32,840 bases of DNA, taken from contig QHWJ01000367.1 of NCBI GenBank assembly GCA_003222535.1, positions 1 through 32,840 of the forward strand, given 5' to 3'. The translations under genes and the position numbers were made by a program. The notes under the pieces were generated by a model. It saw only the letters and a program-made list of their open reading frames with translations. It ran no database searches and had not been told where the DNA came from. Positions 67 to 8,000 of this stretch are shown in pieces. Each line of letters opens with the position of its first letter. The stretch's first letter is position 1. The DNA is from Acidobacteriota bacterium. GTDB taxonomy: Bacteria; Acidobacteriota; Vicinamibacteria; Vicinamibacterales; CAVVIG01.

Positions 67-321
67 TCACCGCGTTTCGAAGCCGGCATACCGCGCCAGC
101 TCGCCCGTGACGACCCGCGCGAGCAGGCGCGTCTGGATTTCCAGAACACGCCGGTAGCTGACACGATACCCGAACACTGGATGCGTGACGAGCGTGTCCA
201 TCCGCTGCTCGTAGGCGCGGAGACAGGCCGGCACCTTGTGCTTAGCGAGGAATCTGAGAATGTCTCGGGCGGCCAGGGCGAGTCCGCGTGCTGGGACCTT
301 CAGATGTGTTTTTTTCGCCAT
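67..321 (-). pseudogene. cas1: Chimeric ORF: unknown/nucleotidyltransferase-like N-terminus joined to the Cas1 C-terminus
   Basis: An 84-codon frame whose last ~48 residues, from about AYEQRMD to the end, read as the extreme C-terminus of Cas1 ([13 protein letters not shown], then [11 protein letters not shown]-like helix residues, ending GFETR). This is the style of the Cas1 half of type I-G Cas4-Cas1 fusions. Full Cas1 is over 300 residues, so the catalytic Glu/His/Asp region and any Cas4 domain are absent. The first ~34 residues ([20 protein letters not shown] and on) do not look like Cas1; they resemble the start of a small nucleotidyltransferase-like protein, but that is a guess. The join near base 220 implies a deletion fusing two genes. 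The ORF overlaps the upstream small gene by 22 bp. An integrase function is impossible; it is most likely a deletion scar. Confidence 0.6.
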
Positions 322-557
322 AAGGCGAAGGCGCGCTGCACGCGGATGAGGGCGTCGGCGTCGTCACCGGGACGATCGGGCTGCCACAGGCTGAGCAGAT
401 CGAGCGTCATGCTTGCCCGCTGCCCGGTTCGCATGGCCCCCAACCGGCGCCAGCGTTCGGCGTCGAGCACGGGGCCGACACGCTTCCAGTTTTCGAGCCA
501 CCGTTTCGTCGCGGCGCCGGTGTCGTCGACGATGGTCGGTGACCGGCTGGCGCGCAC
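300..557 (-). CDS. Small hypothetical protein upstream of the Cas1 chimera
   Basis: An 85-codon frame starting ATG at 557. The predicted protein is helical and charged, with [20 protein letters not shown] near the start and LSLWQP in the middle. This type of short protein often precedes a nucleotidyltransferase or other toxin-like gene, and here its end overlaps the next frame by 22 bp. That agrees with the idea that the following chimera began as such a partner. I do not recognise a defined family. It could be an orphaned antitoxin-like gene whose partner was truncated by the Cas1 fusion. Confidence 0.45.
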
Positions 558-581
558 CAGATGATTCTACAGTTCCGGACC

Positions 582-587
582 TATAAT
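582..587 (+). promoter_or_regulatory. Perfect -10 box (TATAAT) six bases before the MntA start codon
   Basis: TATAAT is followed by six bases and then ATG at 594. Transcription normally begins 6-7 bases after a -10 box, so the mRNA would begin at or next to the start codon, that is, be leaderless. No good -35 hexamer is seen 16-18 bases upstream. Confidence 0.5.
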
Positions 588-593
588 CCAGCG

Positions 594-989
594 ATGGATC
601 CGGATCGCCTTTCGGCTGTGTGCCGCACCCACGGCGTCCGTCTGCTGCTGCAGTTCGGATCGACAGTTTCCAACCGCGCGCACGCGGCGAGCGACACCGA
701 TCTGGCCGTGCTGCTGGAGAGGCGGCCGGCGTCTCTGGACGCGTACGCTGATCTCTCTGGGGATTTCCAGGCGCTGCTACCAGGCCGGGAAGTCGACCTG
801 GCGCTCATCAACGGCGCCGATCCGCTCTTCCTCAAGAGGATCACCGAAAATTGCCGGCTTCTGTATGGGCCGATGCGAGCGCTGCAGGAGCTGAAGATCT
901 ATGCGTTCAAGCGATACCAGGACCACCGCCGGTTCCTGGCGATGGAGCGCAATTACGTGCGTGACAAGATCCGGGCGCTGGCGCGATGA
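594..989 (+). CDS. mntA: MNT-domain nucleotidyltransferase, antitoxin of a HEPN/MNT pair
   Basis: A 131-residue minimal nucleotidyltransferase. The active-site pattern GS-x10-DxD is present: G22-S23 then D34 and D36, with a probable third carboxylate at D68 (REVDLALI). In characterised HEPN/MNT systems the MNT protein AMPylates a tyrosine of the HEPN RNase and so neutralises it; transfer of that role here is inference. The ATG at 594 was chosen over an in-frame ATG at 561 because a TATAAT box sits at 582-587, inside the longer reading. The stop overlaps the HEPN start (ATGA at 986-989), indicating translational coupling and a conserved stoichiometry. All catalytic residues look intact, unlike the broken genes around it. 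Confidence 0.85.
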   Translation: MDPDRLSAVCRTHGVRLLLQFGSTVSNRAHAASDTDLAVLLERRPASLDAYADLSGDFQALLPGREVDLALINGADPLFLKRITENCRLLYGPMRALQELKIYAFKRYQDHRRFLAMERNYVRDKIRALAR

Positions 990-1420
990 CGGTCGATCGC
1001 GAGCTCGTCACCCGGAAGCTGCTGCTGATCACCCAGGACCTTGACGCCGTCGCGCCGTTCGCGACAAAGCCGGTTTCGACGTTTCTGGAGAGCCGCGTCG
1101 ATCGGGCGGTGGTCGAGCGGCTGCTGGAACGGGTGATCGGCCGGATGATTGACGTCAAGTATCACCTGATTACGGAGTGCGGGCACCCGCCGCCGTCCGA
1201 CTATCACGCCTCCTTCCTGAAACTGGCCGAGCTGGGAATCTTGGACCACGAGTTCGCGCGGCGCATCGCGCGGTGCGCCGGCCTGCGCAACCGGCTCGTG
1301 CACGAGTACGAGGAGATCGATCCACGCAAGGTCTTCGAGTCGCTTCAGGCCGCCAGAGACGACATCGTCACGTACGTGCGCAGCGTCGAGTCGTACTTCG
1401 ACGGACTATCGGGACCGTGA
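986..1420 (+). CDS. hepT: HEPN-domain RNase toxin (DUF86/HepT type)
   Basis: A 144-residue helical HEPN protein of the DUF86 family. The signature RX4HXY is intact as RNRLVHEY (R101, H106, Y108). Arg and His are the RNase residues in this family and the Tyr is the site that the MNT partner AMPylates in the studied Shewanella pair. The start codon overlaps the MNT stop by 4 bp, the usual operon layout. The gene ends 17 bp from the convergent end of the PIN-associated gene. The pair appears functional and is probably a toxin-antitoxin or phage-defense module. Confidence 0.85.
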   Translation: MTVDRELVTRKLLLITQDLDAVAPFATKPVSTFLESRVDRAVVERLLERVIGRMIDVKYHLITECGHPPPSDYHASFLKLAELGILDHEFARRIARCAGLRNRLVHEYEEIDPRKVFESLQAARDDIVTYVRSVESYFDGLSGP

Positions 1421-1437: not shown

Positions 1438-1632
1438 TCAGGACGATGGCTGGCCGATCCTCGGGACGTCGTGGTCGTCAGGCCGCTTTGGCGTCAGCAC
1501 GACTGCCGTTCGCCCTGCGGCGGCCTCCTCACGAGCCAGGAGATCGAGTAGCCCGTCCAACGTGCCGCCGGCGGCCTGCAACAGTGCGGCGCGCGCCGCG
1601 CGGACCTCGTCGACAATCTGGTCCCTCGTCAT
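1438..1632 (-). CDS. Small partner protein of the PIN toxin (putative antitoxin)
   Basis: A 64-residue protein beginning MTRDQIVDEVRAARAALLQA. It has the layout of the short proteins commonly found just after one VapC-like PIN family: an N-terminal xIVDEVRxxR helix, then a segment ending ...AGRTAVVLTPKR. The ATG at 1630-1632 overlaps the TGA that would end the undamaged PIN frame (1632-1634). This supports both the start choice and the view that the PIN gene once read through to 1632. The protein itself has no lesion. The antitoxin role is inferred from context; no DNA-binding motif is obvious. Confidence 0.6.
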   Translation of the reverse strand: MTRDQIVDEVRAARAALLQAAGGTLDGLLDLLAREEAAAGRTAVVLTPKRPDDHDVPRIGQPSS

Positions 1633-2104
1633 CAGAGCTCCTCCATGAGCTGCTCCGGGGTGCACACGACCGGCGCGATGTAGCCTGCCGAGACGCAGGT
1701 GCGCTCAATGCGCCACTTGATTTGCGCTTGGCGCTGAGCCGGAGATTCCACGTCATCAGGTAGTCAATGCCATGCACAGCCGCGACGGCGATGTGCACGG
1801 CGTCCGCCACGGCGTAGGCAGGCACGACCGCTTCTCGAAGAAGTCGCGTACCAAGCTCTCGGACCGCCGGCGTGAGAGCGAGCGACGGAATGTCCCGCAG
1901 CATGTCATAGCGTCGCTCGGCGGCCTCCGGATTCCCGCTGCGTGCCTCCTGATGCACCAATTCCGACACGAACAGCGCAAACGCCAGACGCCGGGACGCC
2001 CACCAATCGAGCGTGGTCCGCTGGTGAGCGGCGGTCACCAAGTCCGAACTGATGCGAGCCGCCAGATAGCTGATGACTGTCGTCTCCAGGTACACGGACG
2101 CCAT
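1632..2104 (-). pseudogene. vapC: PIN-domain (VapC-like) toxin with a one-base frameshift
   Basis: The frame from ATG 2104 encodes a PIN nuclease: MASVYLETTVISYL (first acidic site), FVSELVHQEAR, YAVADAVHIAVA and DYLMTWN. After TWN (about 1745) the frame becomes arginine/serine rich and runs on to 1529. The other frame, however, gives the expected tail: AQIKWRIERTC, SAGYIAPVVCTPEQLMEEL and a stop at 1632-1634. Adding one base near 1725-1735 restores a protein of about 157 residues, the normal size for this family. The lesion removes only the C-terminal part, after the last catalytic Asp. It could be a true mutation or a sequencing error; no slippery site suggesting programmed shifting is seen. 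Confidence 0.75.
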
Positions 2105-2340: not shown

Positions 2341-2850
2341 TCACTGCCTCCGCCCCGCGAACAGGCCACCGCCCAGATGCCGGCTCCTTCCGAGGACGAT
2401 TGGCCCCCCGACGGCCACTCTGAACGCCAGGACCGCGCCCCCAACCAAGCCGACTCCGGATACGCCGCGCAGCTCGCAGGGCGTTACAAGCGGTTCAGGA
2501 AGACCGCCTCGGCGACACTCCGCGCGAAGATCTGCGGCCAGAGCCTCTGTGGCGCCAACCTGTTTCGTGTGACGCGTGACCTGATACGGGGTCACGCTCT
2601 CCCAGGTGCGGGTTGGAGCGAAGAGCCGATCGGCACCGAGGTCAATAGACGCCTTGGTCAGCATCAGGCGGCCCGCCGAACCTGCCCGCAACTCGCGAAA
2701 CTCGGTCATAGCGATATCGAGGATTTCCAAATGCCCCTTCTCCTCGTGGGTTGGAGGACGCCGATCGACGACATGAGGCGCAAGGACCAAAATCCGAACT
2801 GGCCCAGGGTCGAACACGAATGTCAGATGCGGATAACGCTCCGTTCGCGC
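2341..2850 (-). pseudogene. csb2: Csb2 (type I-G Cas5/Cas6-like) C-terminal remnant
   Basis: From about 2841 the minus frame ending at 2341 reads as the C-terminal ~165 residues of Csb2: HLTFVFDPGPVRILVLAP, KASIDLGADRLFAPTRTWES, VTPYQVTRH, ALAADLRAECRR, ELRGVSGVGLVGG, and the glycine-rich ending GPIVLGRSRHLGGGLFAG. This ending with LGRSR-GGG is typical of the type I-G Cas5-Cas6 fusion protein. The 5' part is missing, and the frame is entered from cas3 codons in a different reading frame, so no normal start exists. In intact type I-G loci csb2 lies after cas3, csx17 and csb1 and before cas4-cas1. The order here fits that with internal deletions. Confidence 0.7.
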
Positions 2851-3406
2851 GGGTGAGCTTCTCGAACGGTGGGACCAGATGCGCCTCATCGAGCACGACC
2901 AATGTGTCGGCTCCGAGGAGGCCGGCGTGGTATGGCCGCATCTTGCGGGATGTCCCATAGCCCTCGAAGAGAAGCCGGGAGCCGATCATGTCGACGGTGC
3001 CCACGATGATGGCGGGCGAGGCGGGATCTTCCAGCCAGTCCTTGTTGTCAATGTATTGACCACGGAGAGTCGAGATCGGCAGCGAGCGTGCTCCCAGACC
3101 GAGCGCTTGTTTGAGCTTTGCATCGCGGTCAACGCAGGCCCGGAGCCCGTTTGCTACATCCGTTGCCTGGTCGACCACTGCGCGCCGGTCCACAACATAG
3201 ACGAGGCGGCGGGGCAACGGCGCACGGTGCGCCCGTGCGACAAGCCAGATCGCCATCACCGCGGTCTTGCCGAGTCCTGTCGGAATGTCGCACGCCCTCG
3301 GGATTCTGTTTTCAATCAGCTCGGCGAATAGTGCCTGTTGCCATGGGAACGGCGTGTTGCCGGTGAGGCCCTCGAATTGCGCACAGAAATCTCCGCTGAG
3401 ATGCAC
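2642..3406 (-). pseudogene. cas3: Cas3 helicase N-terminal remnant (type I-G), fused out of frame to csb2
   Basis: The start is taken as GTG at 3406, preceded by AGGAGG with 5 bp spacing. The protein begins VHLSGDFCAQFEGLTG and carries the type I-G Cas3 helicase start: FPWQQALFAEL, Walker A in DIPTGLGKTAV, RRLVYVVDRRAVVDQAT, STLRGQ, AIIVGTVDMIGSRLLFEGYG, and the DEAH box in LVVLDEAHLVPPFEKL. At about 2855 the Cas3 similarity stops, and the frame continues through csb2 DNA in the wrong frame to a stop at 2642. The remainder of the helicase and any HD domain, together with csx17, csb1 and the 5' half of csb2, are missing. Only about 184 Cas3 codons remain, so no functional nuclease-helicase is expected. 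Confidence 0.75.
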
Positions 3407-3457
3407 CCTCGCCTCCTGGTGGCGATCATCGACCGCAGCCGTGACAAGACAGGTCAC

Positions 3458-3905
3458 GGCGAGCCAATCGCTCTGAAAGGAATCGCGAGGTCGTAATACG
3501 ACGTCGCGAGTTCGATGATCAGGAATCTGAGACCTTCCGACTCATTGGGGCTGTACCGGATTGCACACTTACAGCGGATTGCCACCTGCCTCGCGGTTGG
3601 CACAAGGAGCAGCGATGCGATTAATGAGGGCCTGCTGGACACCGTGTCCATGTCGTGCGCTAGTCGATTCAAGGAGCTTGCCGTGCCAAAGTCCGTTTGA
3701 GCGCGGCCACTACTCGTGATCGCTTGCTGGACGCTCCGCAACAAGGTGTGCTCCGCGGCAAATACGATCCCGTACACCGGGCCCCCACCACGGGCTCTGC
3801 TTCGATAGAGCCGCGGATCTACATGGGCGGACTGGGCGTGGAGCACACTTGGTGTTTTGAGCCCGATAGGCCGTGAATGCTTACGATCGATGGAGACTTC
3901 GCATC
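3458..3905. other. Gene-poor stretch upstream of cas3
   Basis: About 450 bp with lower GC than the rest. A minus-strand frame of 130 codons (3846-3454) is open but matches no family I know, lacks a clear ribosome site, and its composition is not clearly coding. No tandem repeats, CRISPR repeats or tRNA folds are apparent. It may hold decayed remains like its neighbours. Confidence 0.4.
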
Positions 3906-4119
3906 ATGACGTTCGTCATCACCGTCATCCAGGACGAAGACGGCATGTTCGTCGTCGAGTGCCCGGCGATTCCGGGGCTACGTGAGCCAGGGGCGGACGG
4001 TTGCGGAGGCGGAGGACAACATCAGGGACGCCATCCGCGAATGTCTCGCGGCGCGACGCGAACTGGGACTGCCGCTCACGATCGAGGTGCGCGACCTGGA
4101 CGCCTCTGTCGAAATATAG
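3906..4119 (+). pseudogene. hicB: HicB-like antitoxin with a one-base frameshift
   Basis: The frame from ATG 3906 starts MTFVITVIQDEDGMFVVECP, a HicB partial RNase H-fold start, then AIPG. After CCGGGG (about 3973-3976) it loses sense. Removing one G restores YVSQGRTVAEAEDNIRDAI, RECLAARRELGLPLTIEV and a stop at 4117-4119, giving a ~70-residue protein typical of short HicB/UPF0150 proteins. No hicA is next to it, so it was probably an orphan before breaking. The lesion sits in a four-G run, so a sequencing slip is possible. It lies between the cas3 remnant and the second MNT/HEPN pair. Confidence 0.75.
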
Positions 4120-4162
4120 ATGGCTCCAATCAGGCGACTCTGCTGAACCGAAAACCCGACGA

Positions 4163-4168
4163 TATACT
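4163..4168 (+). promoter_or_regulatory. -10 box (TATACT) six bases before the second MNT start codon
   Basis: TATACT, then six bases, then GTG at 4175: the same spacing as at the first MNT gene. Aligned from the box to the start codon, the two sites agree at 11 of 15 bases. This again predicts a leaderless mRNA. No convincing -35 box is seen. Confidence 0.45.
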
Positions 4169-4174
4169 ACAGCC

Positions 4175-4510
4175 GTGGTCAGCAGCTCGATCAGAAGGCG
4201 CGCGCTGGACCTCTTCGCCGAACGGGCGCGAGAGATCCTTGGGCCGAAACTGCTGGATCTCCGTCTCTTCGGTTCCGAGGCTCGTGGCGAGGCCAGACCC
4301 GACTCCGATCTGGACGTGCTCGTCGTCGTGCAGCCCGACGCGGAACGCGCGACCCTCGAGGACCGGATCGTCGACATCGCATTTGACGTCAACCTCGAAT
4401 TTGGCCTCTATATCTCTCCACGGGTGGTCACGCGCGGCATCCTGGATGATCCCGTCTGGCGCGAGACGCCGTTCTTGAAGAATGTCGTCCGCGAAAGCAT
4501 TCCGCTGTGA
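4175..4510 (+). CDS. MNT-domain nucleotidyltransferase of a second HEPN/MNT pair
   Basis: A 111-residue minimal nucleotidyltransferase with GS-x10-DxD: G33-S34 in RLFGSEARGEARPDSDLDVL, then D45 and D47; a third Asp is probable in the FDVNLEF strand. The GTG at 4175 is chosen because upstream codons of the same frame lie in the HicB gene and read as arginine/serine-rich noise, and because a -10 box lies just upstream. The stop overlaps the HEPN start (GTGA, 4507-4510). It belongs to a different subfamily from the first MNT gene, with a classic FGSxARGEAxxxSDLD motif. Probably the antitoxin or regulatory half of the pair. Confidence 0.8.
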   Translation: MVSSSIRRRALDLFAERAREILGPKLLDLRLFGSEARGEARPDSDLDVLVVVQPDAERATLEDRIVDIAFDVNLEFGLYISPRVVTRGILDDPVWRETPFLKNVVRESIPL

Positions 4511-4923
4511 CGCCCTCGGAGTCCCTGGCGCACCACCGGATGGCTCGCGCGCGCGCAACATTCGACGACGCTGACGCGCTGATCGAGGGGAAGCGCTGGA
4601 ATGGCGCGCTGAACCGGTTGTATTACGCCGCCTTCTATGCGGCTCGAGCGCTCCTGGCGACGCAGAGTCTCGATTCGTCCCGTCACAGCGGGGTCATCTC
4701 GTTGTTTCAGCAGCATTTCGTGCGGACCGGCCGCGTTCCTCAAGAAACCGCCCGGGCGCTCCCGCGCTTGTTCGAAAAACGCCAAACGACAGACTACGGA
4801 GACTACGCCGAGGCGACCCGCGACGAAGTCGCAGCGCTGAGAGTTCAAGTCGCGGCGTTCCTCAAAGCGTGCGAGGATTTGCTTCCTCCCCCTGAATCGC
4901 CTGCCCGTCCGACCGACGACTGA
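4507..4923 (+). CDS. HEPN-domain protein of the second HEPN/MNT pair
   Basis: A 138-residue helical HEPN protein (PF05168-like). Recognisable parts are ALNRLYYAAFYAARALL and RHSGVISLFQQHFV. The canonical RX4-6H RNase motif is absent: the matching place reads KRQTTDYGDY, as is common in this subfamily, so RNase activity is uncertain. The GTG start overlaps the MNT stop. The last ~12 residues are proline rich and probably disordered. The gene is undamaged. It may be a toxin by another mechanism or a binding partner of the MNT enzyme. Confidence 0.75.
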   Translation: MTPSESLAHHRMARARATFDDADALIEGKRWNGALNRLYYAAFYAARALLATQSLDSSRHSGVISLFQQHFVRTGRVPQETARALPRLFEKRQTTDYGDYAEATRDEVAALRVQVAAFLKACEDLLPPPESPARPTDD

Positions 4924-5041: not shown

Positions 5042-8000
5042 GTGATATCCTGCGCGCCACGGTCGCCCTCGGATGCCTCCCTTGCACACGAAGCTCTCCA
5101 CCGTTCTCGCCAGTCAGGTTCCCACGCAGTCTCGCACCCGCGGACACGCGTACTTCACGAGCGGCGCCGTCCGCAGCTTGACCGCGCAGCACGGGATCAT
5201 CCAGGCGACCGTCCGCGGCTCGGAGCTGTACCACGTGTGGCTCGAGCCGGACGGCGGACTGCTCCGCTGCTCAGGCCCGGCGTCACGCCCGACGAGGTGT
5301 ATCTCGAACCCCTGGTCCCCGACGACGACTATGACTCGGAAGACGAGGACGAGCGCGTCTGGAAGCCCACCGTCCCCTTGCGTGCGCCGGCGCCCGCGCC
5401 GCGCCGCGAGCCGCAGCCTCCACCGCCGTGGCGGGCACTGATCGACGCGGTCAGCGCCACCGTCCCGGCGACTCCTCCGCTGCGCCCACAGCTCGCCGCC
5501 GGCCAATTGCTCTACGTCGTCGACGTGGCCGCCACAACCGCCAGCGGAGCGCTCGTCATGGAGCTGATGACGCGCGACCGCAAAGCCAACGGCGACTGGG
5601 GCAAACCGAAACCCGCCAGGGTGACGGCCGCCGGCGTGGCGTCGCTGCCCGACCCGGCGGAGCGCGAGATCCTGCAGCGACTGTCGGGCGGGCGCTCGCA
5701 ATTCGAATGGGGATACAACGGCTACGGCCCGGATCTGTGCCGCGTGGAGCTGCGTGGCGTCCTGGTCACCGATGTCGTACCCGGCGCATGCGCGACGGGG
5801 CGTTGCATGGTGCGCGTCAGGACTCCGGCCCGACCACCTGTCGTGAGCGAGACGCCCATTCTCCGACGGGCTCAGGATGAGCGGCGAGTCGAAGGGCCGT
5901 CGAACGTACCGTCACTCTCGCCTGTCGCCTGGGATGACGGCGCACCGTGGACGTTCGCCATCGGCGTGTATCACGTCCCTGATGAATCCCCCGGCGGGTA
6001 CGCGATCGAAGGCTGGCTGAGGCGGGACAACGAGCGGATGGAGTTGTCCGATGCGCTGCTGCTGCACGACGGGGTGCTGTTCACGAAAACGCACGCCGCA
6101 GTCCTGAACCACGGCGGTGCGTTCACGTGGCTGAAAGCGTTGCAGCGCACCGGCCGCGTGACCGTTCCAGCCGAAGCCCGCGACGAGCTCGTCGACGCGC
6201 TGCTGCCTCTCGGGCCGCTGCTGGCCGCGTTGCCGGACGATCTCCGCGTCGAAACGGTCGCGGGACAGCCGCGACCGCACCTTCGCCTCCGGCCGGCGCC
6301 CTTTCGATCCGACCGGCTCATCGCCGAGGTCGCGTTCGAGTACGACGGCACGCTGGTCGCTCCAGAATCGCCCCGCCCGATCGTTCGCGCCGCCGGCGCG
6401 CCGCGCGCAATTCGTCGCGACGCGGATGCCGAGCGGCGAGCCGTGGATGTGCTGTTCGAACGGGGCATCCGCTCCGAGTGGAACCATCAGACCGGCCAGC
6501 CCGCGCTGCAGCTCCCCTCGACCCTGCTGCCCCGCATCGCCCGGCAACTGCTCGGTGATGGGTGGCACGTGGAAGCCGCGGGACGGATCTATCGACGGCC
6601 GGCCGCCCTCCCCACGCTGCACGTCGCCTCCGGGATCGACTGGTTCGAGCTGCACGGCGACGTGGCCTACGACGATCAGCACGCCTCGCTGCCGGCTCTG
6701 CTCGCGGCGCTCGATCGCGGCGAATCGTTCGTGACGCTCGGCGATGGGACAATCGGCCTGCTGCCGGAGGAATGGCTCCGCAAGCATGCGCCGATCGCGC
6801 GGCTCGGAACGCGCGACGGCACGCAGATCCGGTTCAAAGCGTCGCAAGTGGCGCTGCTCGATTCGCTGATCGCGGCGCAGCCGGACGCCTCGTGGGACGA
6901 GACGTTCACTCGTGCCCGCGCGGAGCTCCAGACCTTCGACGGCATCCGGCCAGTGGACCCGTCGGCGACGTTCGCGGGCACGCTGCGCGGCTATCAGCGC
7001 GAGGGGCTCGGCTGGCTGCTGTTCCTGCAGCGATTCGGCTTCGGCGGCTGCCTCGCGGACGACATGGGCCTCGGCAAAACCGTGATGGTCCTCGCGCTTC
7101 TCGCGGGGCGGCGGGACGCGCAGCCGGACGCCGGTCGCCGTCCTTCGCTCGTGGTCGCGCCGCGGTCGGTCGTGTTCAACTGGCGGCAGGAGGCGGCACG
7201 ATTCACGCCGGGGCTGCGTGTGGTCGAATACACCGGCTCGGGCCGCACCGAGATCCGGACGCAATTCCGCGATCACGATCTGGTGCTGACAACCTACGGC
7301 ACGCTGCGTCGCGATGCCGCCCATCTCGCCGCGACACCGTTCGACTACGTCGTCCTCGATGAAGCGCAGGCCATCAAGAATGCCGCAACCGTCTCGGCCA
7401 AAGCGACCCGCCTGCTCGACGCGCGCCACCGGCTGGCGCTGAGCGGCACGCCCATCGAGAATCACCTCGGGGAGTTGTGGAGTCTGTTCGAGTTTCTCAA
7501 TCCGGGGCTGCTGAGCACCGCGCACGCCTTCGAGCGGGCCGGCGCCGGCCGCCACATGGACGACGATGCGATCGCCATGCTGGCGCGCGGGCTGCGCCCC
7601 TTCATGCTGCGACGGACCAAGGATCAGGTCGCGCGTGAGCTGCCGGCAAGAACCGAACAGACGCTGTACTGCGATCTCGAGCGACCGCAGCGAGCCCTGT
7701 ACGACGAGCTGCTGGGCCACTACCGCCGGACGCTGCTCGGTGAATCGCCGGCGAACGGGCTCGGCCGCGCGAAGCTGCAGATCCTCGAAGCCCTCCTTCG
7801 GCTGCGCCAGGCCGCCTGCCATCCCGGCCTGATCGACAAGCGCCGGTCGCATGAGGCGTCGGCGAAGCTCGACATGCTTGTGCCCCGGATCGCCGAGGCG
7901 GTCGCGGAGGAGCACAAGGCGCTCGTCTTCTCACAGTTCACCAGTCTGCTCGCGATCCTTCGCGCGCGGCTGGACGAGGCGCACGTTCCGTACGAGTATC

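Follow-up and report, generated by a model that had tools for sequence, protein, structure and literature searches.

An eroded type I-G CRISPR-Cas locus with a probable cas3-csb2 deletion fusion, and candidate CreR/CreA-like mini-CRISPRs in related loci

Close to the left end of the window (here the whole 32,840 nt stretch of DNA that was analysed), a cas3 reading frame runs straight into csb2 DNA, which raises the question of how the two genes were joined and what is left of the CRISPR-Cas system to which they belonged. The DNA comes from a draft genome (8.06 Mb, 450 contigs, completeness 95.5%), in which the window forms the beginning of contig 105. We are confident that the left end of the window is occupied by an eroded CRISPR-Cas locus of type I-G (formerly I-U), of the kind with csb3 and a long Csb2, that carries a cas3-csb2 deletion fusion. 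A sequence-only reading of this DNA had proposed such a fusion, and it is still the best explanation, given a sharp breakpoint and an independent cas3-csb3 fusion in genome G016; that reading missed a third remnant of the same locus, the end of a cas4/cas1 gene. The csb3 branch of type I-G is covered by the models TIGR02621 (Cas3g), TIGR04106 (Cas8g2), TIGR02570 (Csb1), TIGR02165 (Csb2) and NF049935 (Cas4g/Cas1g). The window's Cas3 N-terminus, Csb2 C-terminus and Cas4/1 C-terminus match TIGR02621, TIGR02165 and NF049935, respectively, and lie on the same strand and in the same order as in the related loci L023 and L057. Unlike an intact type I-G locus, this one is without csb3, csb1 and most of cas3, csb2 and cas4/1, and no CRISPR array was found in the window. 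Its features are, in window coordinates:

70..228, reverse strand: 3' remnant of a fused cas4/cas1 gene, last 53 codons, stop at 67-69, 5' part gone (NF049935)
300..557, reverse strand: small ORF between the cas1 remnant and the MNT/HepT pair, no family match
561..989, forward strand: MNT nucleotidyltransferase, antitoxin side of the MNT/HepT pair (Pfam Polbeta, E 9.9e-12)
986..1420, forward strand: HepT-like ribonuclease toxin (Pfam HepT-like, E 7.1e-23)
1529..2104, reverse strand: PIN-domain toxin ORF directly downstream of the csb2 remnant (Pfam PIN, E 6.3e-5, 24.0 bits, cut-off 23.6)
2341..2856, reverse strand: csb2 3' remnant, predicted to cover the greater part of the C-terminal Cas6-like domain, with the stop where expected (TIGR02165, PADLOC Cas56g, own profile)
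2854..2858, reverse strand: deletion junction, uncertain by approximately 3 nt (switch of DNA similarity relative to L057)
2857..3406, reverse strand: cas3 5' remnant, start codon through DEAH box (TIGR02621, own profile, sequence reading)

HMM searches bore out the Cas3 and Csb2 identities, as NCBIfam, PADLOC and our own profiles, built from related loci, matched both genes, with NCBIfam scores below the cut-offs. For cas3, TIGR02621 matched 2642-3457 on the reverse strand (model 1-211 of 854, E 1.9e-73) with 248.6 bits, below the curated cut-off of 400, PADLOC Cas3g matched with E 4e-73, and our profile matched 2846-3424 on the reverse strand (model 5-200 of 914, E 4.7e-104). Pfam placed a DEAD/ResIII helicase domain in the same frame. 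The remnant is approximately 180 codons long and includes Walker A (IPTGLGKT) and the DEAH box, with matching ending approximately 11 residues past the latter. It is closest to L057 (86% identity over 115 residues), with 95% over 39 residues in L059. The start and ribosome site are intact, as previously claimed, with GTG at 3406 and AGGAGG just upstream read from the sequence. The open frame comprises 254 codons, continues to 2642 through out-of-frame csb2 DNA and could yield, on translation, a shortened Cas3 that carries the first helicase motifs. Such a protein has neither the HD nuclease nor the motifs past the DEAH box, and the gene is a remnant, not a working member, of the Cas3g family.

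For csb2, TIGR02165 matched 2341-2958 on the reverse strand (E 2.8e-9) with 36.7 bits, below the NCBIfam cut-off of 45, and PADLOC Cas56g matched with E 3e-12; the csb2 frame had no Pfam match. Our csb2 profile matched 2353-2874 on the reverse strand (E 2.7e-56) over model positions 556-729 of 732 only, and there is no second copy in the genome, so this is not a complete Csb2 (Cas5-Cas6 fusion). Cas3 does run into csb2 in another frame, as had been described, but what is left of csb2 is the last quarter of the 732-position model and not the C-terminal third. The piece has no internal stop and keeps the conserved motifs. Its closest relatives are csb2 remnants in L071 (80% identity over 84 residues), L057 (72%) and L062 (68%).

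The part of Csb2 that survives was placed with a structure prediction for the L023 protein (721 residues, mean pLDDT 82.5, pTM 0.57). Residues 489-718 of the model align to Cas6 (4z7k, Z 12.6), and the window remnant is therefore predicted to be most of the Cas6-like domain, with approximately the first 50-60 residues gone. Residues 1-235 align to 4n77 (Z 11.0), whose title says only 'Cas protein', and to Cascade chains, and residues 235-491 align to the Cmr2-Cmr3 entry 4h4k (Z 8.3, near middling), a single row among the best 50. The middle and C-terminal parts of the long Csb2 are related to one another (profile comparison, hhalign probability 94%, E 1.3e-7). According to a report on the type I-G system of Thioalkalivibrio sulfidiphilus (PMC9638904), Csb2 of that species has a Cas5-like domain and a C-terminal Cas6 domain that processes pre-crRNA; by analogy with it, the N-terminal part of the long Csb2 would be Cas5-like. 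The same report describes an effector with Csx17/Cas8g, whereas the window's relatives have csb3, and their Csb2, at approximately 720-740 aa, differs in an extra middle domain before the Cas6-like part. Long Csb2 proteins of this kind, with three predicted parts (N-terminal Cas-like, middle and Cas6-like), are represented by L023:14808-16976 and by our alignment A1 (27 sequences). Among short Csb2 proteins, several align to the long profile no further than approximately position 505; those of L010-L016 and L069 also match its last part, in some cases in a different order, which homology of the middle and last parts of the long Csb2 would lead one to expect.

The order and strand of the pieces fit type I-G, as had been proposed, since intact loci carry cas3-csb3-csb1-csb2 on one strand. 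This arrangement was found in L022, L023 and others (csb2 approximately 730 codons), and in L057, whose cas3 is cut by the contig start. The L023 operon was checked by NCBIfam, and its second gene is TIGR04106, Cas8g2 (csb3). The junction was located by DNA comparison, using reverse-strand positions of the 1,117-base stretch 2341-3457. Relative to L057, similarity to cas3 covers positions 262-602 and similarity to csb2 positions 600-1117, placing the switch near window position 2856. In L057 itself, the cas3 similarity ends at 344 and that to csb2 starts at 6555, and the 6,210 nt between these points are missing from the window. For the other relatives in this comparison, the cas3 match stops at 597-611, or at 502 for L062, a locus with a deletion of its own at that point; those with a csb2 match have it begin at 602-854. 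One edge agrees within 2 nt in the comparisons with L022 and L062 (cas3 end 603, csb2 start 602); the second edge is further off, or is cut by L062's own deletion. The relatives are too diverged (the nearest intact one at the DNA level shares 82% identity in cas3 and 74% in csb2) to show the exact breakpoint or any microhomology. The same junction was not found in any second genome.

From these matching points and the gene order of intact relatives, the deletion would have taken the rest of cas3, csb3 (cas8g2), csb1 and approximately three quarters of the long csb2. The rest of cas3 and csb1 had been named before; the earlier figure of half of csb2 is too low, and csx17, proposed as the deleted large subunit, was rejected, as L023, which has relatives of all three remnants, has TIGR04106 in that place. 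Our csb3 profile found no match in the window. In the matched cas3 and csb2 stretches there is as yet no stop or frameshift. Comparison with L057 gave synonymous and non-synonymous differences of pS 0.41 and pN 0.09 over 113 codons of cas3 and pS 0.53 and pN 0.19 over 173 codons of csb2, while the intact csb2 genes of L057 and L062 gave pS 0.53 and pN 0.17. As the frames are undamaged and the excess of pS over pN is like that between intact genes, the gene loss looks recent relative to the split from L057.

The remainder of the genome was searched for the missing genes. Beyond the window, the Cas3g profile had eight matches (best 43.5 bits), which we took for general helicases, and the only Cas4g/Cas1g match was the window remnant. 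Csb1 and Csb2 were sought with our own alignments A1 and A2, using five other genomes as controls: Csb1 had no match in this genome (4/5 controls matched in the same search) and Csb2 matched only the window remnant (5/5 controls matched). Searches with PF09609, TIGR02165 and TIGR02570 were set aside, as they matched nowhere, 14 control genomes included; the two Csb2 models, PF09609 and TIGR02165, missed even the csb2 remnant. At 95.5% completeness, absence of the other type I-G genes searched for is likely, not certain. Our cas2 profile had no match in the window; the contig starts 66 nt past the cas1 stop, and both cas2 and an array may be located further left, outside the contig. A genome search with one 14 nt core of the type I-G repeat, which a divergent repeat would escape, returned no exact match and seven scattered matches with one mismatch, against two for the backwards control. 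As none of the type I-G effector and adaptation proteins searched for is whole, no interference, crRNA processing or adaptation would be expected from the locus.

Damage of this kind recurs in related loci. Cas3g was matched with E below 1e-40 in 8 of the 27 family genomes, one of which, G016, has an independent fusion of cas3 (model 13-167) into csb3 (226-294), followed by csb1 (31-376 of 379) and csb2 (1-729 of 732); its cas3 N-terminal frame is 161 codons. A cas3 N-terminal fragment in G008 was rejected as a deletion because it is cut by the contig end (7541/7544). In L039 (9986-18964), a csb1-csb2-cas3 cassette from another type I-G branch lies inside an older type I-G operon, in the order cas3 (model 12-272), cassette, old csb2 (352-729). 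In L067 and L060, N-terminal pieces of cas3 stand immediately before csb1, and the two csb2 3' remnants of L071 follow a different effector operon, one that profiles show to be whole. Such type I-G loci seem to undergo rebuilding time and again, with a tendency for the outermost parts of the operon to remain. Two further arrangements were seen. In L071:1763-3832, each csb2 3' remnant is preceded by RhuM-type-like pieces, among small toxin-like genes (labels other than csb2 by eye). L063:3399-10140 is a scrambled type I-G locus with a cas4/1 that lacks its middle, two cas3 N-terminal pieces, scraps of csb2 and one solitary good repeat.

In the simplest reading, which is unproven, a single deletion of approximately 6.2 kb would have joined cas3 codon ~180 to the last ~170 codons of csb2. 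As L039 has a type I-G cassette between a cas3 stub and a csb2 3' end, the scar could also be produced by insertion of a second cassette into the old operon and its later loss, leaving the 5' end of cas3 and the 3' end of csb2. L039 looks like an intermediate in such an effector replacement, and the pieces in L067, L060 and L071 would fit it too, but nothing foreign lies between the window's two pieces and both look like parts of one system, with L057 the best match for each apart from the 39 cas3 residues in L059 and the short csb2 remnants in L071. A single deletion also needs fewer steps, and we regard replacement as unlikely. An error of assembly or binning, by which two ends of an intact type I-G operon, or two strains, were joined, is less probable still; the genome is a draft of many contigs, but the missing csb1 and the rest of csb2 were found on no other contig, the cas4/cas1 remnant is separately broken and sits with toxin genes placed as in a natural locus, and G016 is an independent genome with a comparable fusion. 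Retention of the Cas3 stub as a small working protein, such as a dominant regulator or helicase fragment, is highly improbable despite the intact start, ribosome site and open frame and the similar stub in G016, as the two stubs end differently (model 200 and 167), the second RecA domain and nuclease are missing and there is no sign of purifying selection after the break.

Besides the single deletion favoured here, a second change would have taken cas4/cas1 except its end. NF049935 matched this remnant at 494-546 of 546 (E 2.3e-21) and our profile at 523-575 of 575 (E 6.7e-22), with a PADLOC match as well; with only the last 53 codons present, it is not a complete Cas4/Cas1 fusion. The piece is closest to L073 (92%), L072 (84%) and L075 (80%), and shares only 61% with L057. 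To judge from these short fragments, the locus may combine adaptation and effector genes of separate origin.

The toxin-antitoxin genes between csb2 and cas1 are probably residents of the old locus that were retained, and their loss may be penalised. MNT shares 72% identity with L071:94-501. HepT was matched with E 1e-25 or better in 5 of the 27 family genomes, including this one, and its only close relative among them is in G013 (83% identity), where its neighbours are a PIN-like gene and a pair of csb2 3' remnants; a type I-G operon with a short csb2, whole by profile, lies alongside. The small ORF at 300..557 had no NCBIfam or PADLOC match, a weak PHROG match (E 0.54) and one relative, in L063 (46% identity over 70 aa). 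Elsewhere in the window, at 3906-4923, is a second nucleotidyltransferase/HEPN pair (genes 4001-4510 and 4507-4923, by Pfam), beside a short frame that is HicB-like by eye. Literature searches on truncated cas3, on Csb2 with a Cas6 duplication and on toxin-antitoxin genes with CRISPR loss turned up no mention of such a locus in titles or the opening lines of abstracts.

Upstream of the cas3 stub, three further features were noted:

3799..3834, reverse strand: degenerate type I-G CRISPR repeat (PWM)
3762..3798, reverse strand: possible guide (spacer-like) segment of a decayed CreR-like element, placed by position as the 37 nt that come after the repeat
3464..3477, reverse strand: possible target of this guide, decayed, TTC + AGAGCgatTGG, with its first base 68 nt ahead of the cas3 start codon (seed 8/10)

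According to two reports, a CreA guide matches its target at positions 1-5 and 7-11 next to a PAM (PMC8501985), and the type I-G PAM is TTN (PMC9638904). Candidate elements that follow this rule were found in 6 of the 74 sequences scanned, the window included, all six near cas3 or csb1:

L047:9754-9862, CreR/CreA-like mini-CRISPR (Lamprocystis purpurea DSM 4197; predicted 8 nt handle ATTGAAGC)
L104:6916-7024, CreR/CreA-like mini-CRISPR
L042:2705-2813, CreR/CreA-like mini-CRISPR
L028:8581-8692, CreR/CreA-like mini-CRISPR
L025:4994-5029, CreR/CreA-like mini-CRISPR
L074:6016-6125, CreR/CreA-like mini-CRISPR

In each, a handle-like end leads into a guide whose complete seed finds a match next to TTN within 1.2 kb, and the element lies within 1.5 kb of a type I-G cas gene. 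The guide-target pairs have 11 to 17 matched positions in the leading stretch, and with positions 6, 12 and 18 left free the match runs over 15-18 positions in five loci and 13 in L042. A second recognisable repeat is present in L028, L042, L047 and L104; only one repeat was seen in L025, and the L074 match relies on the stretch that follows the second of its repeats, beyond which no third was seen. The spacers between two repeats in L053 and L074 are without a local target. The six resemble CreR/CreA, as described in PMC8501985, PMC12737573 and PMC12948488, in their degenerate repeats, in a single guide near cas genes and in matching at positions 1-5 and 7-11 after the PAM (TTN here).

These six came from a scan whose rules were tightened once the outcome of a first one was known: arrays were masked, overlapping targets dropped, one handle mismatch allowed and larger stretches used for some loci. 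It gave 6 matches, against 4 in all for 12 shuffled handles. The first, unmasked scan (up to two handle mismatches) gave 31 matches, most of them in arrays or palindromic repeats, and did not separate from six shuffled handles (129, 6, 34, 12, 5 and 10). A few matches lay outside arrays and palindromic repeats, all with two-mismatch handles and presumably due to chance or local repeats: L025:15032, two in L032, L052:12403, L058:9621 and window:9240. Other solitary or paired repeats were also seen: L053:16997-17102, lying between csb2 and cas4/1, is a mini-CRISPR of two repeats, one of them almost perfect, and L099:8007-8042 and L100:4117-4152 are solitary degenerate type I-G repeats near csb1 for which no full seed target was found.

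The window differs from CreR/CreA in having only one degenerate repeat and a weak seed. Its repeat scored 15.6 with a PWM built from 12 type I-G repeats that themselves score 34-49; the next best in the window scored 4.6, and 2 of 100 Markov shuffles of the window reached its score. It is identical to the best of the 12 at 25/36 positions, a value that is borderline in a plain-identity comparison of cas3-upstream regions, where background blocks of L033 (25) and L069 (26) equal and exceed it. A second repeat at the right distance was seen by eye only. In 1.18 Mb of other loci there were 15 solitary repeat matches scoring at least 13, of which 14 lay within 1.5 kb of a cas gene; approximately six of these look like first or last array repeats, and the loci were chosen for cas genes, making this a rough background only. 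The ORF at 3454-3846 on the reverse strand, which overlaps the repeat, was rejected as a gene, having no plasmid or Pfam match and, besides itself, two weak matches (E 0.006 and 0.009) among 100 genomes.

The window's best seed match, 8 of the 10 positions, was reached by 2.5% of 5,000 random window 37-mers against the same 355 nt, and by 0.7% when the first five positions had to match. In a shuffle test on the shorter cas-proximal stretch, only L042 (0/500) and the window (p 0.012) were significant; L047 (0.42) and L021 (0.08), whose targets lie further out, were not, and in the wider 2.4 kb the window target had p 0.09. That the window keeps a decayed CreR-like relic is at best evenly balanced. 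If it does, the repeat may be the leftover of an autoregulator, evidence for which is weak, and its mini-CRISPR would have lost its purpose upon deletion of the effector genes. The wider proposal, that CreR-like mini-CRISPRs close to cas3 or csb1 autoregulate type I-G loci and that the window keeps a decayed, purposeless example, is put forward tentatively, as somewhat short of an even chance. No paper that treats both CreR and type I-G was found in the literature searched, which left out most subscription papers, and novelty is unproven.

The erosion of the locus is in itself ordinary. It illustrates how a type I-G system decays: both extremities of the effector operon persist, as does the tail of the adaptation gene, and the toxin-antitoxin genes located between these remnants have outlasted the CRISPR genes. 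The CreR/CreA-like elements in related loci are of more interest. If they are confirmed by experiment, RNA-guided autoregulation of cas genes would extend to type I-G, and the six loci, including that of L. purpurea DSM 4197, are ready test cases.
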